This document shows positions 5,530 to 24,526 of a stretch of 47,038 nt of DNA, piece after piece (the first letter of the stretch is position 1; every line of letters begins with the position of its first letter). The notes under the pieces were generated by a model. That model worked only from the letters and a program-made list of their open reading frames with translations. It made no database searches and was not told the origin of the DNA. The translations under genes and the position numbers were made by a program. The stretch lies in IMG/VR virus record IMGVR_UViG_3300025168_000146, positions 1 to 47,038 of that record; one strand, 5' to 3'. Source of the DNA: a virus.

Positions 5530-5973
5530 ATGGATTTAAATAAACTAAGAGAAGAACTAACTTTCGATGAAGGTTGTATAGATAAAATATATCTTGACCA
5601 TTTAGGTTATCCTACTTTTGGAATAGGTCATCTAGTATTAGAAACAGACCCTGAACATGGACAAGAAGTAGATACACCTGTTTCTGAAAAAAGAATAAAA
5701 GAATGTTTTGAAAAAGATATACAAAACGTCTTTAACGATTTAGATAGAAATATACCTTGGTGGAGAGATTTACCTGAAGATTTAGTTTTAGTTATGGCTA
5801 ACATGTGTTTTAATTTAGGAGTAACTAGGTTGTTAAAATTTAAAAACTTTTTAGCAGCTATGGAAAAAGAAGACTGGGATAAAGCAGCAGTTGAAATGTT
5901 AGACAGTCGTTGGGCTATACAAGTAGGTCCAAGGGCGATAAGATTAAAAGATAGAGTTTTAAAGGAAGGCTAA
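5530..5973 (+). CDS. T4-type lysozyme (endolysin, GH24 muramidase)
   Basis: 147 residues. It hydrolyses the MurNAc-GlcNAc bond of peptidoglycan for host lysis. The catalytic triad of the T4 lysozyme family is readable: Glu14 (FDEG), Asp23 (YLDHLGYPT) and Thr29, followed by FGIGHLV. The helical lobe (LPEDLVLVMANMCFNLGV, then FKNFLAAMEKEDW) matches the family, as does the length (T4 lysozyme is 164 residues). There is no signal peptide, so a holin is needed for release. I chose the ATG at 5530 because GGGAAAG precedes it; a longer frame reaching back to 5329 only duplicates the upstream gene. Confidence 0.92.
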   Translation: MDLNKLREELTFDEGCIDKIYLDHLGYPTFGIGHLVLETDPEHGQEVDTPVSEKRIKECFEKDIQNVFNDLDRNIPWWRDLPEDLVLVMANMCFNLGVTRLLKFKNFLAAMEKEDWDKAAVEMLDSRWAIQVGPRAIRLKDRVLKEG

Positions 5974-6150
5974 ATGAAAGGCGTAAAACATTACAAAAAA
6001 GACGGTACTGAACATAAAGGCAGTTCACATAAAATGGCTAACGGTACTTTACATACAAATAAATCTCACACTAAAACAAGTGTAAAACTTTTTCATTTTA
6101 ATGAGTTAAGTAAAAAAGCAAAAACAAAAGCAAAACCAAAGAGGAAATAA
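5974..6150 (+). CDS. Very small basic protein, first of three
   Basis: 58 residues (MKGVKHYKKDGTEHKGSSHK... ending KAKPKRK), rich in Lys and His. The ATG lies one base after the lysozyme stop and its own TAA overlaps the next ATG. The MKGVKHYKKDG start followed by HKMANG looks like a conserved small phage protein. Nucleic-acid binding or packaging with the genome is plausible from charge alone. Confidence 0.6.
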   Translation: MKGVKHYKKDGTEHKGSSHKMANGTLHTNKSHTKTSVKLFHFNELSKKAKTKAKPKRK

Positions 6151-6338
6151 TGCCCACAAAAAAGAAAACACATAAAACTAAAGATGGTAGAACAGCTAGA
6201 AAAGGTCTTTATTATAATATAAATAAGAAACGTAAAGAAGGAAAAAAGATGCGTAAAAAAGGAGCAAAAGGGGCTCCTACAGCAGCTGCTTTTAAACGTT
6301 CTGCTAAGACAGCTAAAAAACCCAAAAAGAAAGCCTAA
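6150..6338 (+). CDS. Very basic Lys/Arg-rich protein, second of three
   Basis: 62 residues, of which 26 are Lys or Arg. There is almost no acidic residue and the tail is AKTAKKPKKKA, resembling histone H1 tails or protamine-like DNA-condensing proteins. TAATG overlaps on both sides place it firmly in the operon. Function inferred only from composition: DNA or RNA binding, possibly virion DNA compaction. Confidence 0.65.
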   Translation: MPTKKKTHKTKDGRTARKGLYYNINKKRKEGKKMRKKGAKGAPTAAAFKRSAKTAKKPKKKA

Positions 6339-6631
6339 TGCCTAGGACAAAGGAAAAATCTATAAGACGTACTACTGGTAAAGGAGGTAATTACCGTAAA
6401 ACTAAATCAGGTGCGGGCATGACTAAAAAAGGAGTCAAAGCATATAGAGCTAAAAATCCTGGTAGTAAATTAAAAACAGCTGTTACAGGAAAAGTTAAAA
6501 AAGGAAGTAAGGCAGCAAAAAGGAGAAAATCTTATTGTGCAAGGTCAGCAGGACAAATGAAGAAGTTTCCTAAAGCTGCTAAAGACCCTAACTCAAGATT
6601 GCGACAAGCAAGAAAAAGGTGGAAGTGCTAA
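6338..6631 (+). CDS. Basic protein, DUF6321-like, third of three
   Basis: 97 residues. The stretch KNPGSKLKTAVTGKVKKGSK, then AAKRRKSYCARSAGQMKK and DPNSRLRQARKRWKC, matches a family frequent in marine phages that I recall as DUF6321. The function of the family is unknown. It is strongly basic with two cysteines (SYCARS and the C-terminal C). Being the third consecutive basic gene it may act with its two neighbours on nucleic acid. Confidence 0.75.
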   Translation: MPRTKEKSIRRTTGKGGNYRKTKSGAGMTKKGVKAYRAKNPGSKLKTAVTGKVKKGSKAAKRRKSYCARSAGQMKKFPKAAKDPNSRLRQARKRWKC

Positions 6632-7053
6632 TGTATGAATATAGTTGTACAGTTGATAGAGTAGTTGATGGAGATACCATTGATGTTATATTAGACCTTG
6701 GGTTTGATATTCTTTACCGTTCAAGAGTTCGTCTTTATGGAATAGATACCCCTGAGTCTAGAACTAGAAACAAAGACGAAAAAGTTAGAGGAAAGATGGC
6801 TTCTGCGTATTTAAAAGAAGCTGTTGATAATGGTAAAAAAGTAATTATAGAAACTAAATTAAAAGATTCTAAAGGAAAATTTGGTAGAGTTTTAGGTAAC
6901 GTGATGGTTGATGGAATAAATATTAATCAATTAATGATAGATAATTATTTAGCTGTAGCTTATTTTGGTCAAAGCAAAAACGATATAGAAGCTGAACATT
7001 TAATTAATAGAGAAAAATTAATAGAACTAGGTAAGTTTGAACCAGTAGTTTAA
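6631..7053 (+). CDS. Thermonuclease (staphylococcal-nuclease family)
   Basis: 140 residues. SNase fold signature: VDGDTID, then VRLYGIDTPES and KFGRVLGNV. The arginine before LYGIDTPE, the glutamate in TPES and the arginine in FGRVLG fit the catalytic Arg35, Glu43 and Arg87 of the S. aureus enzyme. It would cleave DNA or RNA using calcium. No signal peptide is present, so it acts in the cytoplasm or virion. The ATG at 6631 overlaps the previous TAA. A GTG at 6619 is possible but lies inside the previous gene. Candidate for host DNA degradation. Confidence 0.88.
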   Translation: MYEYSCTVDRVVDGDTIDVILDLGFDILYRSRVRLYGIDTPESRTRNKDEKVRGKMASAYLKEAVDNGKKVIIETKLKDSKGKFGRVLGNVMVDGININQLMIDNYLAVAYFGQSKNDIEAEHLINREKLIELGKFEPVV

Positions 7054-7403
7054 TGGACTCAGTAGTACAGTTAATTAACGAAGTAGGTTTTCCTATAGCA
7101 GCAGCGATAGGTTTAGGTTTATTTATTTGGAAACTTATTAATAAAATCATAGATGGAATGGAAACTAAAGTAGATGTTCTTGATGAAAAAGTAAGTGCAC
7201 AAATAGCTCAGATAGAAGACAGGTTAGGTCAAAAATTAGATTCACAACACGGTATTTTAGTTGCTCTTATAGATAGAGTTAGGTCTGTTGATAATGAGAT
7301 AATTAGACAAGATACTCTTTTAAAGACTATACTTGGAGTACCGCAACTTATGAACACCGATAGGTTAGCTAAAGCTGATAGAGAAGACCAAAGGAAAGAT
7401 TGA
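7053..7403 (+). CDS. Membrane-anchored coiled-coil protein (holin candidate)
   Basis: 116 residues. The N-terminus VGFPIAAAIGLGLFIWKLI is a membrane span. A long heptad helix (MDGMETKVDVLDEKVSAQ region to DRLGQKLDSQ) follows, then LVALIDRVRSVDNEI. The topology resembles BhlA/UviB-type small phage membrane proteins, some of which are holins. Coupled by TAATG to the nuclease gene and by TGATG to the next. Role inferred from topology only. Confidence 0.6.
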   Translation: MDSVVQLINEVGFPIAAAIGLGLFIWKLINKIIDGMETKVDVLDEKVSAQIAQIEDRLGQKLDSQHGILVALIDRVRSVDNEIIRQDTLLKTILGVPQLMNTDRLAKADREDQRKD

Positions 7404-7603
7404 TGAAAAAGACATATACAGATGGTTCCAAACTATTCTTAACTGAGTTTAAAGTAGGCGATAAAATATACGAAGGACCATTTATATACGCAAACACTTT
7501 TGAAGAAGCTGATATGGAAGCTACTGCTTACGGAGTAGTTATTGTTGGTGAAATGAAAATACTAAGTGATGACGGTGAGGAGAAAGAAAGAGTTTTACAT
7601 TAG
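7403..7603 (+). CDS. Small hypothetical protein
   Basis: 66 residues starting MKKTYTDGSKLFLTEFKVGD, with FIYANTFEEADMEATAYGV in the middle. The motif NTFEEADMEA followed by VIVGEMKIL is a pattern I associate with small conserved phage proteins without known function. The start overlaps the upstream TGA (TGATG). It is the last gene before the curli-like cluster. Confidence 0.55.
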   Translation: MKKTYTDGSKLFLTEFKVGDKIYEGPFIYANTFEEADMEATAYGVVIVGEMKILSDDGEEKERVLH

Positions 7604-7613
7604 GAGGATTAAA

Positions 7614-8144
7614 ATGGAAAAACGTAAAAGAGGTAGACCAACTAAAACAGAACTTCAGCGTAGAAAAGACGAAGCTGAAAAAGATACTATAATTAAATGG
7701 ATGTGTATTATAGGTGTTGTTCTAGTATTAGGTGTTTTTATACAAAACGCTAAAGCAGACCAAATAGTACATAAATTTAAATCACCTAGTTTTAATGGTG
7801 TCGGTACATCTAGTCATTATCTTACAATCGAAAATCAAGAGTTTTCTCGTAAGCTTACAATCAAAGAAGAAATTAAAGCACTTCAAGATGAATTAGAAAG
7901 AGAGAAAGAAAATAGTACTCTCGCTAGATTTCTTAGGAACCTAGAATCAAGAGTCTATGCTGAGTTGTCTAGACAGTTAGTCAACAACCTCTTTGGCGAA
8001 ACACCTTCTGATTCAGGTACAATAACCTTGGAAGGAAACACCATTGAGTATACAAGTGATGGTGTAACATTAACACTAAAGATAACGGAAGCGGATGGAA
8101 CAGTTACTGAGATTACGATTCCTATTGGTACTTTTTTGTTCTAG
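7614..8144 (+). CDS. csgF: CsgF-like curli assembly protein with signal/anchor and AT-hook-like N-terminus
   Basis: 176 residues. After a membrane segment (residues about 29-45, CIIGVVLVLGVFIQ) comes NAKA, a likely signal peptidase site. The mature start DQIVHKFKSPSFNG matches the diagnostic CsgF N-terminus (E. coli CsgF: FQFRNPNFGG), the part that plugs into the CsgG pore. The tail (SDGVTLTLKITEADGTVTEI) corresponds to the CsgF C-terminal beta domain. The 28 residues before the membrane segment are unusual: KRKRGRPTKTE has an AT-hook-like RGRP core. AGGAGG at 7603-7608 selects this ATG. A start at Met30 would lose the charged region. The last 50 bases overlap csgG out of frame. In E. coli CsgF ties fibre nucleation to the CsgG channel at the outer membrane. 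Confidence 0.82.
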   Translation: MEKRKRGRPTKTELQRRKDEAEKDTIIKWMCIIGVVLVLGVFIQNAKADQIVHKFKSPSFNGVGTSSHYLTIENQEFSRKLTIKEEIKALQDELEREKENSTLARFLRNLESRVYAELSRQLVNNLFGETPSDSGTITLEGNTIEYTSDGVTLTLKITEADGTVTEITIPIGTFLF

Positions 8145-8931
8145 TTGTTCAATACTTGACCAATATGAAGATACGTACGAACATAGGTTTAAAACACACA
8201 ACGTAGTTTCTATTCAGGAATTACAATCTCCTTATTTACGTGACATAGAAGTACCAAAAGTAAGTCCTGTAGTTGCTGTATACCCTACAGCTTTTACCGA
8301 CCAAACAGGACAACGTAAAAGTAATAGTGAGTTTGCTTTATTTTCTACAGCAATAACTCAACAGCCGAATGCTTTATTAATACGAGCATTAAAACATGCA
8401 GGCAACGGTGAGTTCTTTAGGGTTGTAGAAAGAGTCGGTCTTGATAACTTAACTAAAGAAAGACAACTTATACGTTCTGCTAGAGATGCTTTCGCTAGTG
8501 AGGAAGAAAAGAAAAAACAATTATCTCCTTTATTGTTTGCGGGTATTTTAATTGAAGGTGCTGTTATTTCTTACGAAGCTAATCTAGAGTCTGGTGGTGC
8601 AGGTGCAAGGTACTTAGGCATAGGTAACAGTATCCAATACAGAGAAGACAATATAACTGTTAGTCTTCGTATGGTTTCGGTAGCTACGGGTGAGGTATTG
8701 CTAGAAGTATTAAGTCAAAAAACTATATTTAGTTATGGTAAATCAGAAGATGTGTTTAGGTTTATAGAAATGGGAACAGAACTTGTAGAAATAGAGTTAG
8801 GTAACGCTAGAAATGAATCTTCAACCATAGCTTTAATGAAAGCTATCGAAGGTGGGGTACTGGAAATAATAAAACAAGGGTACGTTAAAAAGTATTGGGT
8901 TTTACAAACAGAAGGAAAGGAGGTAGAATGA
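8095..8931 (+). CDS. csgG: CsgG, outer-membrane curli secretion channel lipoprotein
   Basis: 278 residues (E. coli CsgG 277). The N-terminus LRLRFLLVLFCSSC gives a lipoprotein signal with Cys18 as acylation site. Landmarks in E. coli order: DQTGQ, FSTAITQQPNALL, ERVGLDNL.KERQLIR, EGAVISYEANLESGG, GAGARYLGIG, DNITVSLRMVSVATGEVL, SQKTIFSYG, VFRFIEMGTELVEIELG and a final AIEGGVLEIIKQG. This is a near full-length match. CsgG forms a nonameric beta-barrel exporting unfolded curlin. The eyelet region differs: the E. coli PYPASNF is replaced by a one-residue-longer KSNSEFALF, keeping the Phe but losing the Tyr and Asn. The start lies 50 bases inside csgF; a later start would remove the lipobox. Confidence 0.93.
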   Translation: MEQLLRLRFLLVLFCSSCSILDQYEDTYEHRFKTHNVVSIQELQSPYLRDIEVPKVSPVVAVYPTAFTDQTGQRKSNSEFALFSTAITQQPNALLIRALKHAGNGEFFRVVERVGLDNLTKERQLIRSARDAFASEEEKKKQLSPLLFAGILIEGAVISYEANLESGGAGARYLGIGNSIQYREDNITVSLRMVSVATGEVLLEVLSQKTIFSYGKSEDVFRFIEMGTELVEIELGNARNESSTIALMKAIEGGVLEIIKQGYVKKYWVLQTEGKEVE

Positions 8932-8935
8932 GATT

Positions 8936-9670
8936 ATGATGATGAAGAAGTGCATACATCTTTTGCTATGTCTTGCTTTATTTCCGTTTGCTTATGCAGC
9001 AGACAACGAGATATACGTAGACCAGTCAGGAACAGGGGCGAATATAGACCTTGAACAATTAGGTATATCTAACATTATAGGTGGTTTAGGTTCTTCTGCA
9101 GGAAGTTTAACTGCTTTTGATTTAGACGGCACAAGTATGACGTTAGATATCAATATGATAGGTGCTACTAATAAATTCTTAGGAGATATTACCGCAGACA
9201 GTTTTACTGGTTTTTATCAATTCACTGGCGGTACTAATACTTTCTCAATACAAGTAGACCCAAGCAATACCTACGGGGCTGATAACTCTAATCAAAACGT
9301 AGCCGTTACAGGTAGCGGAAATACTTTTACGTTAAACCAAGGAACTACTGCACTAGCAGCTACTTTAGATTTAGACTGGATTATTCAAGGGTCTAATAAC
9401 ACAGTTACATCTAATATAAATATTGATGGAGCTACAAATTACATGGATATAGATGGTAGTGATAACACAGTAAACTATACTGGTACGGGTGTTAATGCTT
9501 CAGCAGGTGGATATTTTTACTTAGACCATACAGGCGGACAAAGAACCTTTAATATTCAACAACTGAGTACACAAGACAATGACTGGCTTAAAATTCTATC
9601 AATTGGCGGTAACGCTAGTTCTACTGTTTGCGTTATTCAAAACGACCAAGGTACTAGCACAAGCTGCTGA
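8936..9670 (+). CDS. Secreted curlin-like protein (putative CsgG substrate)
   Basis: 244 residues. The signal peptide HLLLCLALFPFAYA is followed by a cut at AYA-AD. The mature start NEIYVDQSGTGANIDLEQLG fits the curlin repeat pattern (hydrophobic-x-x-x-Q-x-G-x-x-N-x-x-x-x-x-Q). The rest is Asn/Thr/Gly-rich with spaced units such as VTGSGNTFTLNQGT, IQGSNNTVTSN and IDGSDNTVNYTG, typical of a beta-solenoid or amyloid. It ends in a Cys-containing tail. It follows csgG by five bases, with AAAGGAGG at the end of csgG. Three ATGs in a row (8936, 8939, 8942) are possible starts. Direct proof that it is exported by CsgG or forms amyloid is not available from sequence. Confidence 0.75.
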   Translation: MMMKKCIHLLLCLALFPFAYAADNEIYVDQSGTGANIDLEQLGISNIIGGLGSSAGSLTAFDLDGTSMTLDINMIGATNKFLGDITADSFTGFYQFTGGTNTFSIQVDPSNTYGADNSNQNVAVTGSGNTFTLNQGTTALAATLDLDWIIQGSNNTVTSNINIDGATNYMDIDGSDNTVNYTGTGVNASAGGYFYLDHTGGQRTFNIQQLSTQDNDWLKILSIGGNASSTVCVIQNDQGTSTSC

Positions 9671-10697
9671 TATTGGTGGCATATCTGAACTAAACGGTTC
9701 AGCACAAATACTAAGAGACAAACCATACGACGCTAACTTAAAGTTTGCTATTCAAAGCAACGATGAAGCTATAACTACAGACGGTAGAATGGCTATTACT
9801 TTTCTTGATGAGTCTAAAGTAAAACTAACAGAACACTCACAATTAACAATAGATGAATATATTTACGACCCTGACCCAAGCAAATCTAAAATGGCTCTTA
9901 CCTTTGGTCTTGGGACAGCACGGTTTATTACTGGTAATTTAAACCGAATAGATAAACAAAACATATCCCTTAAAACTCCTACAGCAAACATTGCAATTCG
10001 TGGTACAGACTTTACAGCTACAGTCGATGAACTAGGTCGTAGCCTTATAATACTATTACCAGACGCTCTAGGGCTTTCTAGTGGTGAGATAGAAGTAGTT
10101 ACTGCTATGGGAACTGTTTTATTAAATAAACCTTACGAAGCTACAACAGTTAGTGTGTTTGAATCTGCTCCTAGTAAACCTGTAATACTGGATTTAACGT
10201 TAGACCTTATCGATAATATGTTGATTGTTACTCCTCCTAAAGAAGAAAAAACAACGTATGCTGAAAATATATCAACTAAACAAGAAAGTATTTTAGATTT
10301 TAATGAACTAGATATAGATTACTTAGACGTAGATTATTTAGGTGAGGATGAACTTGAATTTACAGAACTAGATATTAACTTTTTAGACGTAAATTATCTT
10401 GAAGACCTTCTTAATGTATTAGATGCGTTAGCAATAGCTGAAGAAGACGACCAATTAGCACAAGCAACTAGTACGCAAATATCAGGAACTCTTTTAGGTA
10501 AAGACCCAGACACACAAATAACCGCTTTAATAACAGGAAACGTTGTAAGTTTACGAAGACAAGTAAACGAAACTGTTAGAGTTGATTTAAACGGTAGTAA
10601 TGCTTATACAGTAATTTTGATACAAGACGGAATATCTAATATAATCAAGGTGAACGGAGGAAGTGATAGCACTATTACTATTACGCAAAATGATTAA
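9579..10697 (+). CDS. FecR-domain periplasmic protein with acidic repeats and curlin-like C-terminus
   Basis: 372 residues. The signal peptide is residues about 5-29 (LAVTLVLLFALF to LAQA). The FecR domain is at about 40-150: GRMAITFLDESKVKLTEHSQ, then FGLGTARFITG and TPTANIAIRGTDF, the hallmark TPTAxIxIRGTxF. Residues 243-254 and 263-274 repeat an acidic unit (ELDIDYLDVDYL and ELDINFLDVNYL). Residues about 344-370 (VILIQDGISNIIKVNGG, then TITITQ) look like a curlin repeat. The start lies 92 bases inside the curlin-like gene, so the whole signal peptide is encoded in an overlap. The stop overlaps the cyclase start. FecR domains usually transmit periplasmic signals. Pairing with a CHASE2 cyclase suggests a sensor partner. 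Confidence 0.85.
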   Translation: MTGLKFYQLAVTLVLLFALFKTTKVLAQAADIGGISELNGSAQILRDKPYDANLKFAIQSNDEAITTDGRMAITFLDESKVKLTEHSQLTIDEYIYDPDPSKSKMALTFGLGTARFITGNLNRIDKQNISLKTPTANIAIRGTDFTATVDELGRSLIILLPDALGLSSGEIEVVTAMGTVLLNKPYEATTVSVFESAPSKPVILDLTLDLIDNMLIVTPPKEEKTTYAENISTKQESILDFNELDIDYLDVDYLGEDELEFTELDINFLDVNYLEDLLNVLDALAIAEEDDQLAQATSTQISGTLLGKDPDTQITALITGNVVSLRRQVNETVRVDLNGSNAYTVILIQDGISNIIKVNGGSDSTITITQND

Positions 10698-12430
10698 TGA
10701 AAAAATTAATAATACCTTTATTAGTAATATTAGTATTACCTTTAATATTTCAATCAACACCTACAGAAATACTTAAATTAAGGGTATTCGATAATTTTGT
10801 AAAAGAACAAAACCCTTCTGGTAACTTTGTTATTCTTAATATAACAGAAGAAGATGTAGAACGTGAAGGTGGTTATCCGTTACCTAGAAAACGGTTAGCT
10901 GATATACAACTAGAACTCATAGGTAAAGGTGCTCTTGGTGTAGGTTGGGTAATTAGTTTTCCACAGCCCGATAGACTTATGGGCGATGAAGAATTCGCTA
11001 GGTCGTTAGGATATGCTCCTAGTGTTCTTGCTATGTTTGAAACTTCTAACGGTTTATATCCTAAAACTACAGGAACAGTTACTAAAGGTGACGATGTTGG
11101 GGGTATACTTATTAAGGGAGTCAAGGAAAATTTCTACCCTTATCAAAATATATTACAAGGAATCGCCATTGCTCCCACTGAATCTGACCAGCTTGTTAGA
11201 CGAATACCTCTTTTATTAAAAACACCCGAAGGTTGGATAGCTTCTTTTGGTACACAGATATATAAAGCACTCTTTAATGTAAAAACATATATCATCACAA
11301 CTAATCAAAACGGTATACAAGAAATAGCTATACGAGGAATACCTCCCGTAAAGACAGATAGTCTTGGTCGTAAATGGATATCGTGGGTAGATACCCCGCA
11401 AACTGATTTACAAAAAATGGAAGTAAATGGTAAGTTTGTATTCGTAGGTGTTACAGCTAATGGTGTAATGCCACAAATCGCAACTCCTGTTGGGTTATTA
11501 GAACCTCATAAAATACAAGCGGCATTAGCTGAATCATTATTAATACAAGATAGCCCTTATATTCCAGATTATTCTTTAGCGTTAGAACTAGCTATTTATT
11601 TAATCTCAGTAAGCCTAGTATGGGTTTTTATAAGTTATTTAGGTATAACGTGGGGGATAATTTTAGCGGTTACTACGGCGGCTTTAACGGCGTCCTACGG
11701 TTATTACACTATCCAGACGGGGTTACTAATAGATGTTACTTGGTCTTTAATATCTCAGTTTATAACAGGTGCAATAGCTTTTTATATAAGGTTTAGAGAA
11801 CAATGGAGATTAAGAGAACAGATTAAGAAACAGTTTGAACATTATCTAGACCCACGGCAAGTTAAACGTTTACAACAAAATCCTGATTTATTAAAACTAG
11901 GTGGAGAAAAAAGAAGATGTACTTTTTTGTTTACAGACGTTAGAGGTTTTACAGCATTATCAGAAACGTTATCCCCTGAAGAAGTTACAACAATAATGAA
12001 TAAAGCATTAACAATACAATCTAACGCAGTACAAAAACATGGAGGTATGGTTGATAAATATATTGGTGATGCAATGATGGCTATTTTTAATGCGCCTATG
12101 GATTTAAAACATCATGAACAAATAGCAGTAGCTTGTGCTAAAGAAATACAAGAAAACATACAAGCGGCAGGTATAGGTGTAGCTATTGGAGTTGGTGTAA
12201 ATACTGGAGAAGCTGTTATTGGCAATATGGGAAGCGATACTAGGTTTGATTATTCTGCTATAGGAGATGCTGTTAATACGGCGGCTAGATTAGAATCTGC
12301 GACTAAAGAAGTAGGTGTAGATATACTTATTGGAGAAGAAACAGAAAAGTATTGTGGGATAACTTTAAATAAACTAAAACCAATAAAAGTAAAAGGTAAA
12401 GAAAAACCTTTAAATATCTATACGTTTTGA
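10697..12430 (+). CDS. CHASE2-domain class III adenylate/guanylate cyclase
   Basis: 577 residues. Layout: N-terminal membrane helix (about 3-19); periplasmic CHASE2 sensor (about 25-290; RVFDNFV, FVILNITEEDV, PLPRKRLADI); three membrane helices (about 293-363); cytoplasmic cyclase domain (about 405-575). Catalytic residues are intact: metal Asp414 (FLFTDVRGFT) and Asp458 (YIGDAMMAIF), base-specifying Lys454 and Ser520 (DYSAIGD), Asn527 and Arg531 (AVNTAARLE). This fits class IIIb, usually adenylate cyclases, though cGMP cannot be excluded. It would make a second messenger in the host cytoplasm in response to a periplasmic cue, perhaps through the FecR protein encoded just upstream (TAATG coupled). 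I know of no routine phage role for such an enzyme. Confidence 0.93.
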   Translation: MKKLIIPLLVILVLPLIFQSTPTEILKLRVFDNFVKEQNPSGNFVILNITEEDVEREGGYPLPRKRLADIQLELIGKGALGVGWVISFPQPDRLMGDEEFARSLGYAPSVLAMFETSNGLYPKTTGTVTKGDDVGGILIKGVKENFYPYQNILQGIAIAPTESDQLVRRIPLLLKTPEGWIASFGTQIYKALFNVKTYIITTNQNGIQEIAIRGIPPVKTDSLGRKWISWVDTPQTDLQKMEVNGKFVFVGVTANGVMPQIATPVGLLEPHKIQAALAESLLIQDSPYIPDYSLALELAIYLISVSLVWVFISYLGITWGIILAVTTAALTASYGYYTIQTGLLIDVTWSLISQFITGAIAFYIRFREQWRLREQIKKQFEHYLDPRQVKRLQQNPDLLKLGGEKRRCTFLFTDVRGFTALSETLSPEEVTTIMNKALTIQSNAVQKHGGMVDKYIGDAMMAIFNAPMDLKHHEQIAVACAKEIQENIQAAGIGVAIGVGVNTGEAVIGNMGSDTRFDYSAIGDAVNTAARLESATKEVGVDILIGEETEKYCGITLNKLKPIKVKGKEKPLNIYTF

Positions 12431-22358: not shown

Positions 22359-23087
22359 ATGGACCCAAATGAAAAATTAACAGGTATAACATCAATGGCA
22401 CCCCCAGGAATGGGTGGACCGCCTCCAGGACCTCCGATGGGTGGACCTCCAATGGGGGGACCTCCCCCAGGAATGGGTGGTGGACAACCTCCAATGCCTG
22501 AACAAGGAATGGGTGAAATGGCTATGGAAGGACAACCTCCTATGGAAGAAGGAGCTCCAGACCCTCAACAAGATGCAATGATGTTAGCTGAAGCTGTTGT
22601 AGATAGAGCAGGTGGGGATATAAACGCAGCTATCGGTTTAATTGATAATACTAAAGATATGTTAATACAAGCGGCAAGTGCTGGTGGTCAAGAACCACAG
22701 ATGATGATGGGCGGCGGACCTTTGTATGCTCAAATGGGAATGCCTATGTATAAAGAAGACGGTGGTGAATTAAACCCTGGATTACAAGCGTTACAAAAAA
22801 CAAATCCTGAAGTCGTTGATCAAATTCTAAAAAGAGAAGACGGTGGACCTATGTATGCTAATATGGGAATGCCTATGTATGCTAATGAAGGTACAAGTTT
22901 ATCTGATTCTGATATGTTACGTCAAATGATTATGGAAAACTTACAAAAACCAGATATACAAGAACAAATGATGAGCGAAGCTATGGGTCAGTTACAAGGT
23001 CAATCAGGTAGAAGTATGTCTGATAAAGATTCTATGTCTTACCAAGATGCTTTAGATATGTTAGTAAAACAAAGAACTGACGGTTAA
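22359..23087 (+). CDS. Gly/Pro/Met-rich protein with duplicated GMPMY motif
   Basis: 242 residues. The first 65 residues are collagen-like Pro/Gly/Met runs (PPGMGGPPPGPPMGGPP). Residues about 75-110 (DAMMLAEAVVDRAGGDINAA) form a helix. A motif occurs twice: GGGPLYAQMGMPMY and DGGPMYANMGMPMY. The pattern GG-P-MYA-MGM is familiar from C-termini of marine phage internal virion proteins. Last gene of the + strand structural block; it ends in TTAA shared with the stop of the convergent helicase. Confidence 0.6.
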   Translation: MDPNEKLTGITSMAPPGMGGPPPGPPMGGPPMGGPPPGMGGGQPPMPEQGMGEMAMEGQPPMEEGAPDPQQDAMMLAEAVVDRAGGDINAAIGLIDNTKDMLIQAASAGGQEPQMMMGGGPLYAQMGMPMYKEDGGELNPGLQALQKTNPEVVDQILKREDGGPMYANMGMPMYANEGTSLSDSDMLRQMIMENLQKPDIQEQMMSEAMGQLQGQSGRSMSDKDSMSYQDALDMLVKQRTDG

Positions 23088-24526
23088 CCTATCCAATCTT
23101 TCCATTTCTCGTCACCTAGTACTTCTTGTGCTAGGTCGAGTTTATTTCTTAGGGCTTTAACAATCTTTTCATCTACAGTTCCTTTAGCAACAAGGTCTAT
23201 GTAGGTTACTTTATTAGTTTGACCTATACGATGAGCACGGTCTTCAGATTGTAATCGTTTTTCGAGGTCATAATTATTACTATAATAAATAACATTACTT
23301 GCTTCGGTAAGCGTAATACCATAACCACCTGTTTGAGTATTACTAATTAAATATTTAAGTTCTGAGTTTGGGTCTTGAAATCTTCTTATTATTTCTTGAC
23401 GGTCTTCGTCTGGTGTTTCTCCATAATAAGTAGCTACGCTATTAACCCCTGCTATATCATGTAGTTTCTTTCTAATTCTTTTTATATCGAATTGATAGTT
23501 AGCCCATATAATAGTTTTACCTTGTACTTCTTCTAAGATATTTATTAGTTCATCTAAACGGTTAGAAGCTATTTCAACTTCTTCTCCTTGGTCATGTTTA
23601 ACGAAACCACATACGACTTGATGTAATCTTAGGATTTGTGTAAGTACTGAAGTTACACTAACTATTTCATGAGAGTTTAATTCAGCGATAGCGTAATCTG
23701 TTAATTGTTTATAGACTTTCTTTTGTTCAGGAGTTAGTTCTACTTCCCTACGTTGATATACTTTATCAGGAAGGTCTAAACACTCTTTCTTTAGCACCCT
23801 ATAAGAGAACTCATTTACATTTCCAGTAAGTTCTTCTAAATTTTGATAACCAACGACTTGCCTAAAGGTTCTAGTTCCCATAGTTCTATTAATTAGTTTT
23901 GCATATCTATTTTGAAATGAATAAAAAGATGTATAACCTAATAGTTGTGGTGATAGAAATGTACTTTGACTATATAAATCTAACGGTGATTGAGTAACGG
24001 GAAATCCTGTTAATATTCTACGGTATTTTGTATTGACTGCTAACTTCAATAAATTCTTAGTACGTTGTGCTTTAGGGTTTTTAATAGTAGTAGATTCATC
24101 AACAGCTATTAAACAATTATGGGCAAGTATAAATTTCTCAACAAATGCTACGCCTTTCTTCGTACTAAATGCTTCTACATTAACAACTAATATTTTTAAA
24201 TCATCTGTTACATCGAACAGTTTTAGTAGTTCTTGTTTTTGTTTATTAGTAGGAGCAGGTGTCCATACTGCCATATATTTTTCTATATGGTCAGGCATAT
24301 GACTAGGTATCTCTTTCTCAGACCAGTTTCTATAAACGCCTTTAGGTGCTATTATTATAGCCGCATTGATTCCGCCTTTATCATATAATAAAGCTATGTT
24401 ATCTATAAGTACTTTTGATTTACCAGTACCCATTTCCATAAAATAAGCATATTCTTTTTTATTCCAAGAACGTTTTAATGCTTCAAGCTGATGCTCATAT
24501 GGCTTCGTTTTAAACTTATATTTCAT
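23084..24526 (-). CDS. SNF2-family DNA helicase/ATPase
   Basis: 480 residues, the only convincing gene on the - strand. Superfamily 2 motifs in order: YEHQLEAL (Q-like), MEMGTGKSKVL (Walker A), IIAPKGVYRNW (Ia), IAVDEST (DEAD-box variant DEST), RILTGFPVTQSPLDLYSQ (III, LTGTP variant), then C-terminal KTIIWANYQFDIKRI, TQTGGYGITLTEASNVIYY and RLQSEDRAHRIGQTNKV (VI). SNF2 ATPases translocate on duplex DNA. Phage members probably help replication, recombination or protection. It converges on the structural block with a 4-base overlap and no terminator between. Its upstream region carries the shared composite element described at 24557-24611. Confidence 0.93.
   Translation of the reverse strand: MKYKFKTKPYEHQLEALKRSWNKKEYAYFMEMGTGKSKVLIDNIALLYDKGGINAAIIIAPKGVYRNWSEKEIPSHMPDHIEKYMAVWTPAPTNKQKQELLKLFDVTDDLKILVVNVEAFSTKKGVAFVEKFILAHNCLIAVDESTTIKNPKAQRTKNLLKLAVNTKYRRILTGFPVTQSPLDLYSQSTFLSPQLLGYTSFYSFQNRYAKLINRTMGTRTFRQVVGYQNLEELTGNVNEFSYRVLKKECLDLPDKVYQRREVELTPEQKKVYKQLTDYAIAELNSHEIVSVTSVLTQILRLHQVVCGFVKHDQGEEVEIASNRLDELINILEEVQGKTIIWANYQFDIKRIRKKLHDIAGVNSVATYYGETPDEDRQEIIRRFQDPNSELKYLISNTQTGGYGITLTEASNVIYYSNNYDLEKRLQSEDRAHRIGQTNKVTYIDLVAKGTVDEKIVKALRNKLDLAQEVLGDEKWKDWIG

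Follow-up and report, generated by a model that had tools for sequence, protein, structure and literature searches.

The 47,038-nucleotide stretch of viral DNA analysed here (IMG/VR record IMGVR_UViG_3300025168_000146, hereafter the window) carries a known type VIII secretion (curli) module of pelagiphages, through which infected cells on balance probably export a curlin-like fibre, with a sensor cyclase monitoring the export. A curli operon was described in pelagimyophages in 2020 (PMC7029224), and in 2022 a “histidine kinase” gene followed by those for CsgF, CsgG, CsgA/B, FecR, and adenylate cyclase was reported in HTVC023P-type podoviruses and in myophages, together with transfer of the module between viral families, its ocean-wide distribution, and its expression (PMC9599517). 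As these are the same genes in the same type of phage, the module is already known, FecR and cyclase included, and the novelty that the initial annotation saw in a five-gene set with a sensor-cyclase falls away, with the set also present in HTVC008M and Melnitz. In GenBank, HTVC008M is annotated with CsgF, CsgG, a curlin-associated protein, and a cyclase, and Melnitz with a FecR label as well. The additions made here are a small holin-like protein, a FecR protein without the anti-sigma domain, the pairing of FecR and CHASE2-cyclase genes in cellular genomes, and the absence of a cNMP receptor from the phage records and nearly all presumed-host-family genomes searched.

Gene content of the module

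The open reading frames of the window agree with the coordinates of the initial annotation, with all five of its genes on the + strand (Table 1) and CsgF, CsgG, FecR, and CHASE2 with the class III cyclase domain (Guanylate_cyc) firmly assigned by Pfam, each above its curated cutoff. The exception in the proposed gene set is the curlin repeat, for which the window protein does not reach the cutoff, though relatives do. The small membrane protein gene upstream of csgF, absent from that five-gene set, is also part of the module, while the small open reading frame that follows it is kept in some relatives only.

Table 1. Coordinates of the module genes and of the nearby lysozyme gene in the window
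Feature	Position	Strand	Remarks
Phage lysozyme	about 5532 to 5973		Close to module; Pfam
Small membrane protein gene	7053..7403	+	116 aa; first gene of module
Small ORF between membrane-protein gene and csgF	7412..7603	+	Tool listing 7400-7603, TTG start
csgF-like	7614..8144	+	176 aa; PF10614 E 1.7e-17
csgG, outer-membrane secretion pore by family	8095..8931	+	278 aa; PF03783 E 1.2e-45
curlin-like, predicted secreted	8936..9670	+	244 aa; predicted short beta strand series
fecR, FecR-domain protein	9579..10697	+	372 aa; PF04773 E 3.5e-9
CHASE2 sensor + class III nucleotide cyclase	10697..12430	+	577 aa; PF05226 E 2.1e-23, PF00211 E 3.1e-20

The ATG of csgF is preceded by a ribosome-binding site (AGGAGGA), and successive genes overlap by 50 nt (csgF/csgG), 92 nt (curlin/fecR), and 1 nt (fecR/cyclase). 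The second of these overlaps (9579-9670) puts the FecR signal peptide within the curlin C-terminus, in the other frame. The CsgF domain (PF10614) scores 64.2 bits against a curated cutoff of 25.8, and the protein has a long basic N-region followed by a hydrophobic segment ending near NAKA. The CsgG domain (PF03783) scores 155.8 bits against a cutoff of 20.8, with residues 57-274 aligning to the CsgG structures 4uv2/4uv3 of the PDB (E about 1.6e-42) and the lipobox Cys18 almost invariant among relatives; by its family, the window CsgG is predicted to be an outer-membrane secretion pore.

The curlin repeat (PF07012) reaches only 11.4 bits on the window protein against a cutoff of 20.7 (E 0.33), and the name “curlin-like” is therefore used rather than curlin. 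Relatives exceed the cutoff, with the first curlin of Melnitz scoring 26.0 bits and the second curlin of HTVC008M 33.1 bits, and profile comparison matches the window's curlin-like family to the second curlins of both phages with a probability of 97%. The AlphaFold2 (AF2) model (mean pLDDT 77.4) shows regular short strands and turns, with its best viral matches being BFVD models named “Curlin associated”. A fold search of the PDB with this model gave no significant match to solved structures, and curlin turn motifs in the window protein are no more numerous than in shuffled sequences. Together, the relatives, the profile comparison, and the AF2 model support a curlin-like solenoid as the probable product.

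The FecR domain (PF04773; 37.4 bits against a cutoff of 24) is confined to residues 66-151 and is the only Pfam domain of its protein, with a signal-like hydrophobic helix at the N-terminus (residues 2-20) and no cytoplasmic N-terminal anti-sigma (sigma-binding) domain. As this cytoplasmic part is what defines FecR, the role of an iron regulator is unsupported, and the protein reads as a predicted exported partner instead. A curlin-like repeat at the FecR C-terminus was also considered and rejected; the last residues are similar, however profile comparison gave a probability of ~2%, and this part of the model is unreliable.

The small membrane protein is about 84-117 aa long across relatives, with a coiled coil predicted besides its one hydrophobic helix (residues 7-25 in the window). 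The best match to a named family, PHROG holin 4898, is weak (E 2.8e-5) and is shared by 10 of 17 members, and neither HisKA nor HATPase was matched by Pfam in the 116-aa protein or its 16 relatives. A search of 50,697 phage records found the gene in no phages other than HTVC008M and Melnitz, both of which carry curli genes, and it is therefore assigned to the module. From position and copy number we infer that it is the “HK, sometimes two” of PMC9599517, in which case what was published as a “histidine kinase” would seem to be a holin-like protein with one helix and a coiled coil.

Conservation and phage context

A scan of IMG/VR with CsgG returned 431 relatives, the best 80 of these 431 loci being kept for synteny. 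Wherever enough flank was available in these loci, csgG was accompanied by csgF (68/68), the curlin-like gene (73/73), fecR (67/67), the cyclase gene (52/52), and the upstream small membrane gene (65/65), in the invariant order small membrane gene, csgF, csgG, curlin-like, fecR, cyclase. The structural genes flanking the module in the window are common to several IMG/VR loci on both sides, and even the lengths of the overlaps are conserved, at 50 nt for csgF/csgG in 74 of 81 loci and 92 nt for curlin/fecR in 63 of 77. The phage location and tight coupling of the genes, as first proposed, are thereby upheld. That bacterial genes were joined to a phage contig by chimeric assembly, an explanation with no point found in its favour, is ruled out, because many independent contigs and also isolate genomes show the identical order and flanks; its probability is negligible. 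Across the six genes, dN/dS against the window has medians of 0.07-0.16, which are rough because dS is near saturation, and which indicate that all module genes are under purifying selection.

A genome scan for close cellular relatives of CsgG gave seven matches. Contigs with the phage module (L084-L090) occur in MAGs titled Maricaulis, Neomarinimicrobiota, Flavobacteriaceae, Rhodobacteraceae, and Pelagibacter, and in one of these MAG loci (L084) the module is present with no cyclase detected. The seven matches are probably phage contigs binned into MAGs, that is, binning contamination. A CsgG relative was also seen in GenBank OR851715.1, a record of 1499 bases labelled Salmonella phage S.Kent 1-2-1, which may be host DNA.

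The DNA polymerase of the window is closest to that of 023Pt_psg01 (53%), followed by HTVC023P (49%), placing an HTVC023P-type phage as the nearest lineage, and named phages gave no megablast match to the first 25 kb. The module described for HTVC023P-type phages (PMC9599517) is thus of the same lineage and has the same genes in the same order, the upstream small gene included, but the window lacks a second curlin gene between fecR and cyclase. HTVC008M and Melnitz share the order of CsgF, CsgG, curlin, FecR, and CHASE2-cyclase with the window, however both are myophages with a second curlin and a duplicated small gene upstream, and their proteins are 44/40% (CsgG), 36/36% (FecR), and 33/30% (cyclase) identical to those of the window. 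In cellular alphaproteobacterial curli operons csgF adjoins csgG as in the window, with curlin genes often close by, whereas the five such csgFG loci compared have no FecR, cyclase, or small gene. The E. coli csgBAC/csgDEFG system has CsgG and CsgF homologues in common with the window, but the curlin-like cargo of the window has diverged. CsgE and CsgD are reported to be missing from the pelagiphage module (PMC9599517), and the CsgE gate (PF10627) was found in none of ten phage records, with the E. coli control positive.

The module is surrounded by tail spike, virion, lysozyme, and short-tail-fibre genes, and late expression is therefore likely; a promoter scan was uninformative, with fewer matches than in shuffled sequences. 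Beside the lysozyme gene lie three successive small, very lysine-rich proteins (5974-6631; 58, 62, and 97 aa), possibly DNA-binding, followed directly 5' of the module by a Staphylococcal-nuclease-like gene (6619-7053; PF00565, E 4.6e-15), which in relatives is found on other sides of the module. Elsewhere in the window, a helicase-like gene (23084-24526) on the minus strand amid plus-strand genes adjoins an AT-rich gap of ~300 bases.

Sensor cyclase and cyclic-nucleotide signalling

Both cyclase domains exceed their Pfam cutoffs, with CHASE2 (PF05226) scoring 83.7 bits and Guanylate_cyc (PF00211) 73 bits, and the protein matches adenylate cyclases of the PDB with E down to 3e-34. All six catalytic residues are present, namely the metal-binding Asp414/Asp458, the substrate pair Lys454/Asp524, Asn527, and Arg531. 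The window protein is a predicted adenylate cyclase, with cAMP predicted as its product from the Lys454/Asp524 pair, and with the catalytic residues intact a change of second messenger in the infected cell is possible. The Melnitz cyclase (locus L002, 13381-15432) has Ser in place of the transition-state Asn, and its activity may be reduced as a result.

A link between FecR-domain and cyclase genes extends to cells. In 20 cellular FecR loci, chosen by ORF size before cyclases were looked for, a FecR-domain gene lies near a CHASE2-cyclase in 5/20 against 0.19 expected, and the FecR/cyclase pair appears to be a cellular sensor pair of older origin that was joined to curli.

The cNMP_binding domain (PF00027) was found in none of ten phage records, which include fragments, and was absent from 58 of 60 genomes in the family of the MAG titled Candidatus Pelagibacter, many of which are possibly incomplete. 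The target of a SAR11 16S probe was found in 26 of these 60 genomes, which is evidence, though short of proof, for the family being SAR11, the presumed host of the window phage. A class III cyclase and CsgG occur in only two genomes of the family, in each case together on one contig, with one of these contigs being the phage contig L090. The missing cNMP-binding domain undercuts the proposed cAMP-CRP-CsgD route and, with no such receptor seen in the phages or in nearly all presumed-host-family genomes, leaves the signalling arm without a known output. In S. meliloti, the outer-membrane beta-barrel NsrA signals to the CHASE2 adenylate cyclases CyaD1, CyaD2, and CyaK (PMC13001267), which share the CHASE2-class III architecture of the window cyclase and offer a comparison of how such a device may work and no more. 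S. meliloti, however, has the CRP-family receptor Clr, whereas none was found in the ten phage records or in 58/60 of the presumed-host-family genomes.

Proposed mechanism and alternatives

In the reading that we favour, the CsgG pore and CsgF cap would enter the outer membrane late in infection, in a host having none, and the curlin-like solenoid protein would be exported via CsgG/CsgF, probably to coat the infected cell or form a fibre on it. The CHASE2 cyclase and the exported FecR-domain protein would act as a sensor pair that the phage took over from cells, with the periplasmic side reading the pore or cargo and the cyclase making cyclic nucleotide inside. The small membrane protein is a constant companion of the module. 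This export and sensor reading is favoured by the family matches, the complete synteny, the HTVC008M and Melnitz counterparts, the low dN/dS, the solenoid model and its viral curlin matches, the intact catalytic residues, the cellular FecR-CHASE2-cyclase pairing, the distribution and expression reported in PMC9599517, and the S. meliloti precedent. Counting against it are the sub-cutoff curlin repeat, turn motifs not above shuffles, the failure to find CsgE, the absence of clumping with Melnitz (PMC9004378), and the lack of a cNMP-binding receptor in the phages and in 58/60 presumed-host-family genomes. A more specific version, which we hold only tentatively, is that the cyclic nucleotide of this sensor-and-secretion device has no conventional receptor in host or phage, and acts via an unrecognised one, is exported, or drains ATP, with the small membrane protein serving as an inner-membrane partner of CsgG. 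As to what the phage may gain, aggregation, superinfection block, uptake, and envelope opening at lysis are published hypotheses.

The pore itself may be what matters, with CsgE-less CsgG opening the outer membrane for nutrient or cofactor uptake and the curlin-like and FecR proteins as accessories; uptake has been suggested before (PMC7029224, PMC9599517), and CsgE was not found in ten phage records. This is unlikely, however, with the curlin-like gene kept in all 73 loci and constrained as much as csgG, and with a bare pore not requiring CsgF, as argued in PMC7029224. The small protein, invariant upstream and similar to a holin family, and the phage lysozyme close by suggest control of or assistance to lysis, with CsgG as the outer-membrane pore of the lysis programme, a role proposed in 2022 (PMC9004378). 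The holin match is weak, however, and the small gene and module travel jointly, apart from their local neighbours, and occur in few phages, with most relatives in the named collection lacking them; furthermore, a curlin-like cargo, a FecR protein, and a sensor cyclase are out of place in a simple lysis pore, making this role quite unlikely. That iron sensing, a histidine kinase, and cAMP regulate curli expression, by way of FecR, the cyclase, and the small membrane protein, is a proposal that stems from gene labels and analogy with enterobacterial CsgD control (PMC9599517), but is improbable given an “HK” candidate without a kinase domain, a FecR protein without an anti-sigma domain, and the absence of cNMP_binding from ten phage records and 58/60 presumed-host-family genomes.

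With the labels “histidine kinase” and “iron regulator” recast and no known cAMP receptor found in the phages or nearly all genomes searched, the targets for experiments are narrower. In viruses of the most abundant bacteria of the ocean, a 5 kb module for surface secretion and sensing is maintained, one that their hosts lack as far as tested. It would rank among the rare envelope organelles made by viruses, and could account for aggregation or the exclusion of superinfecting phages.
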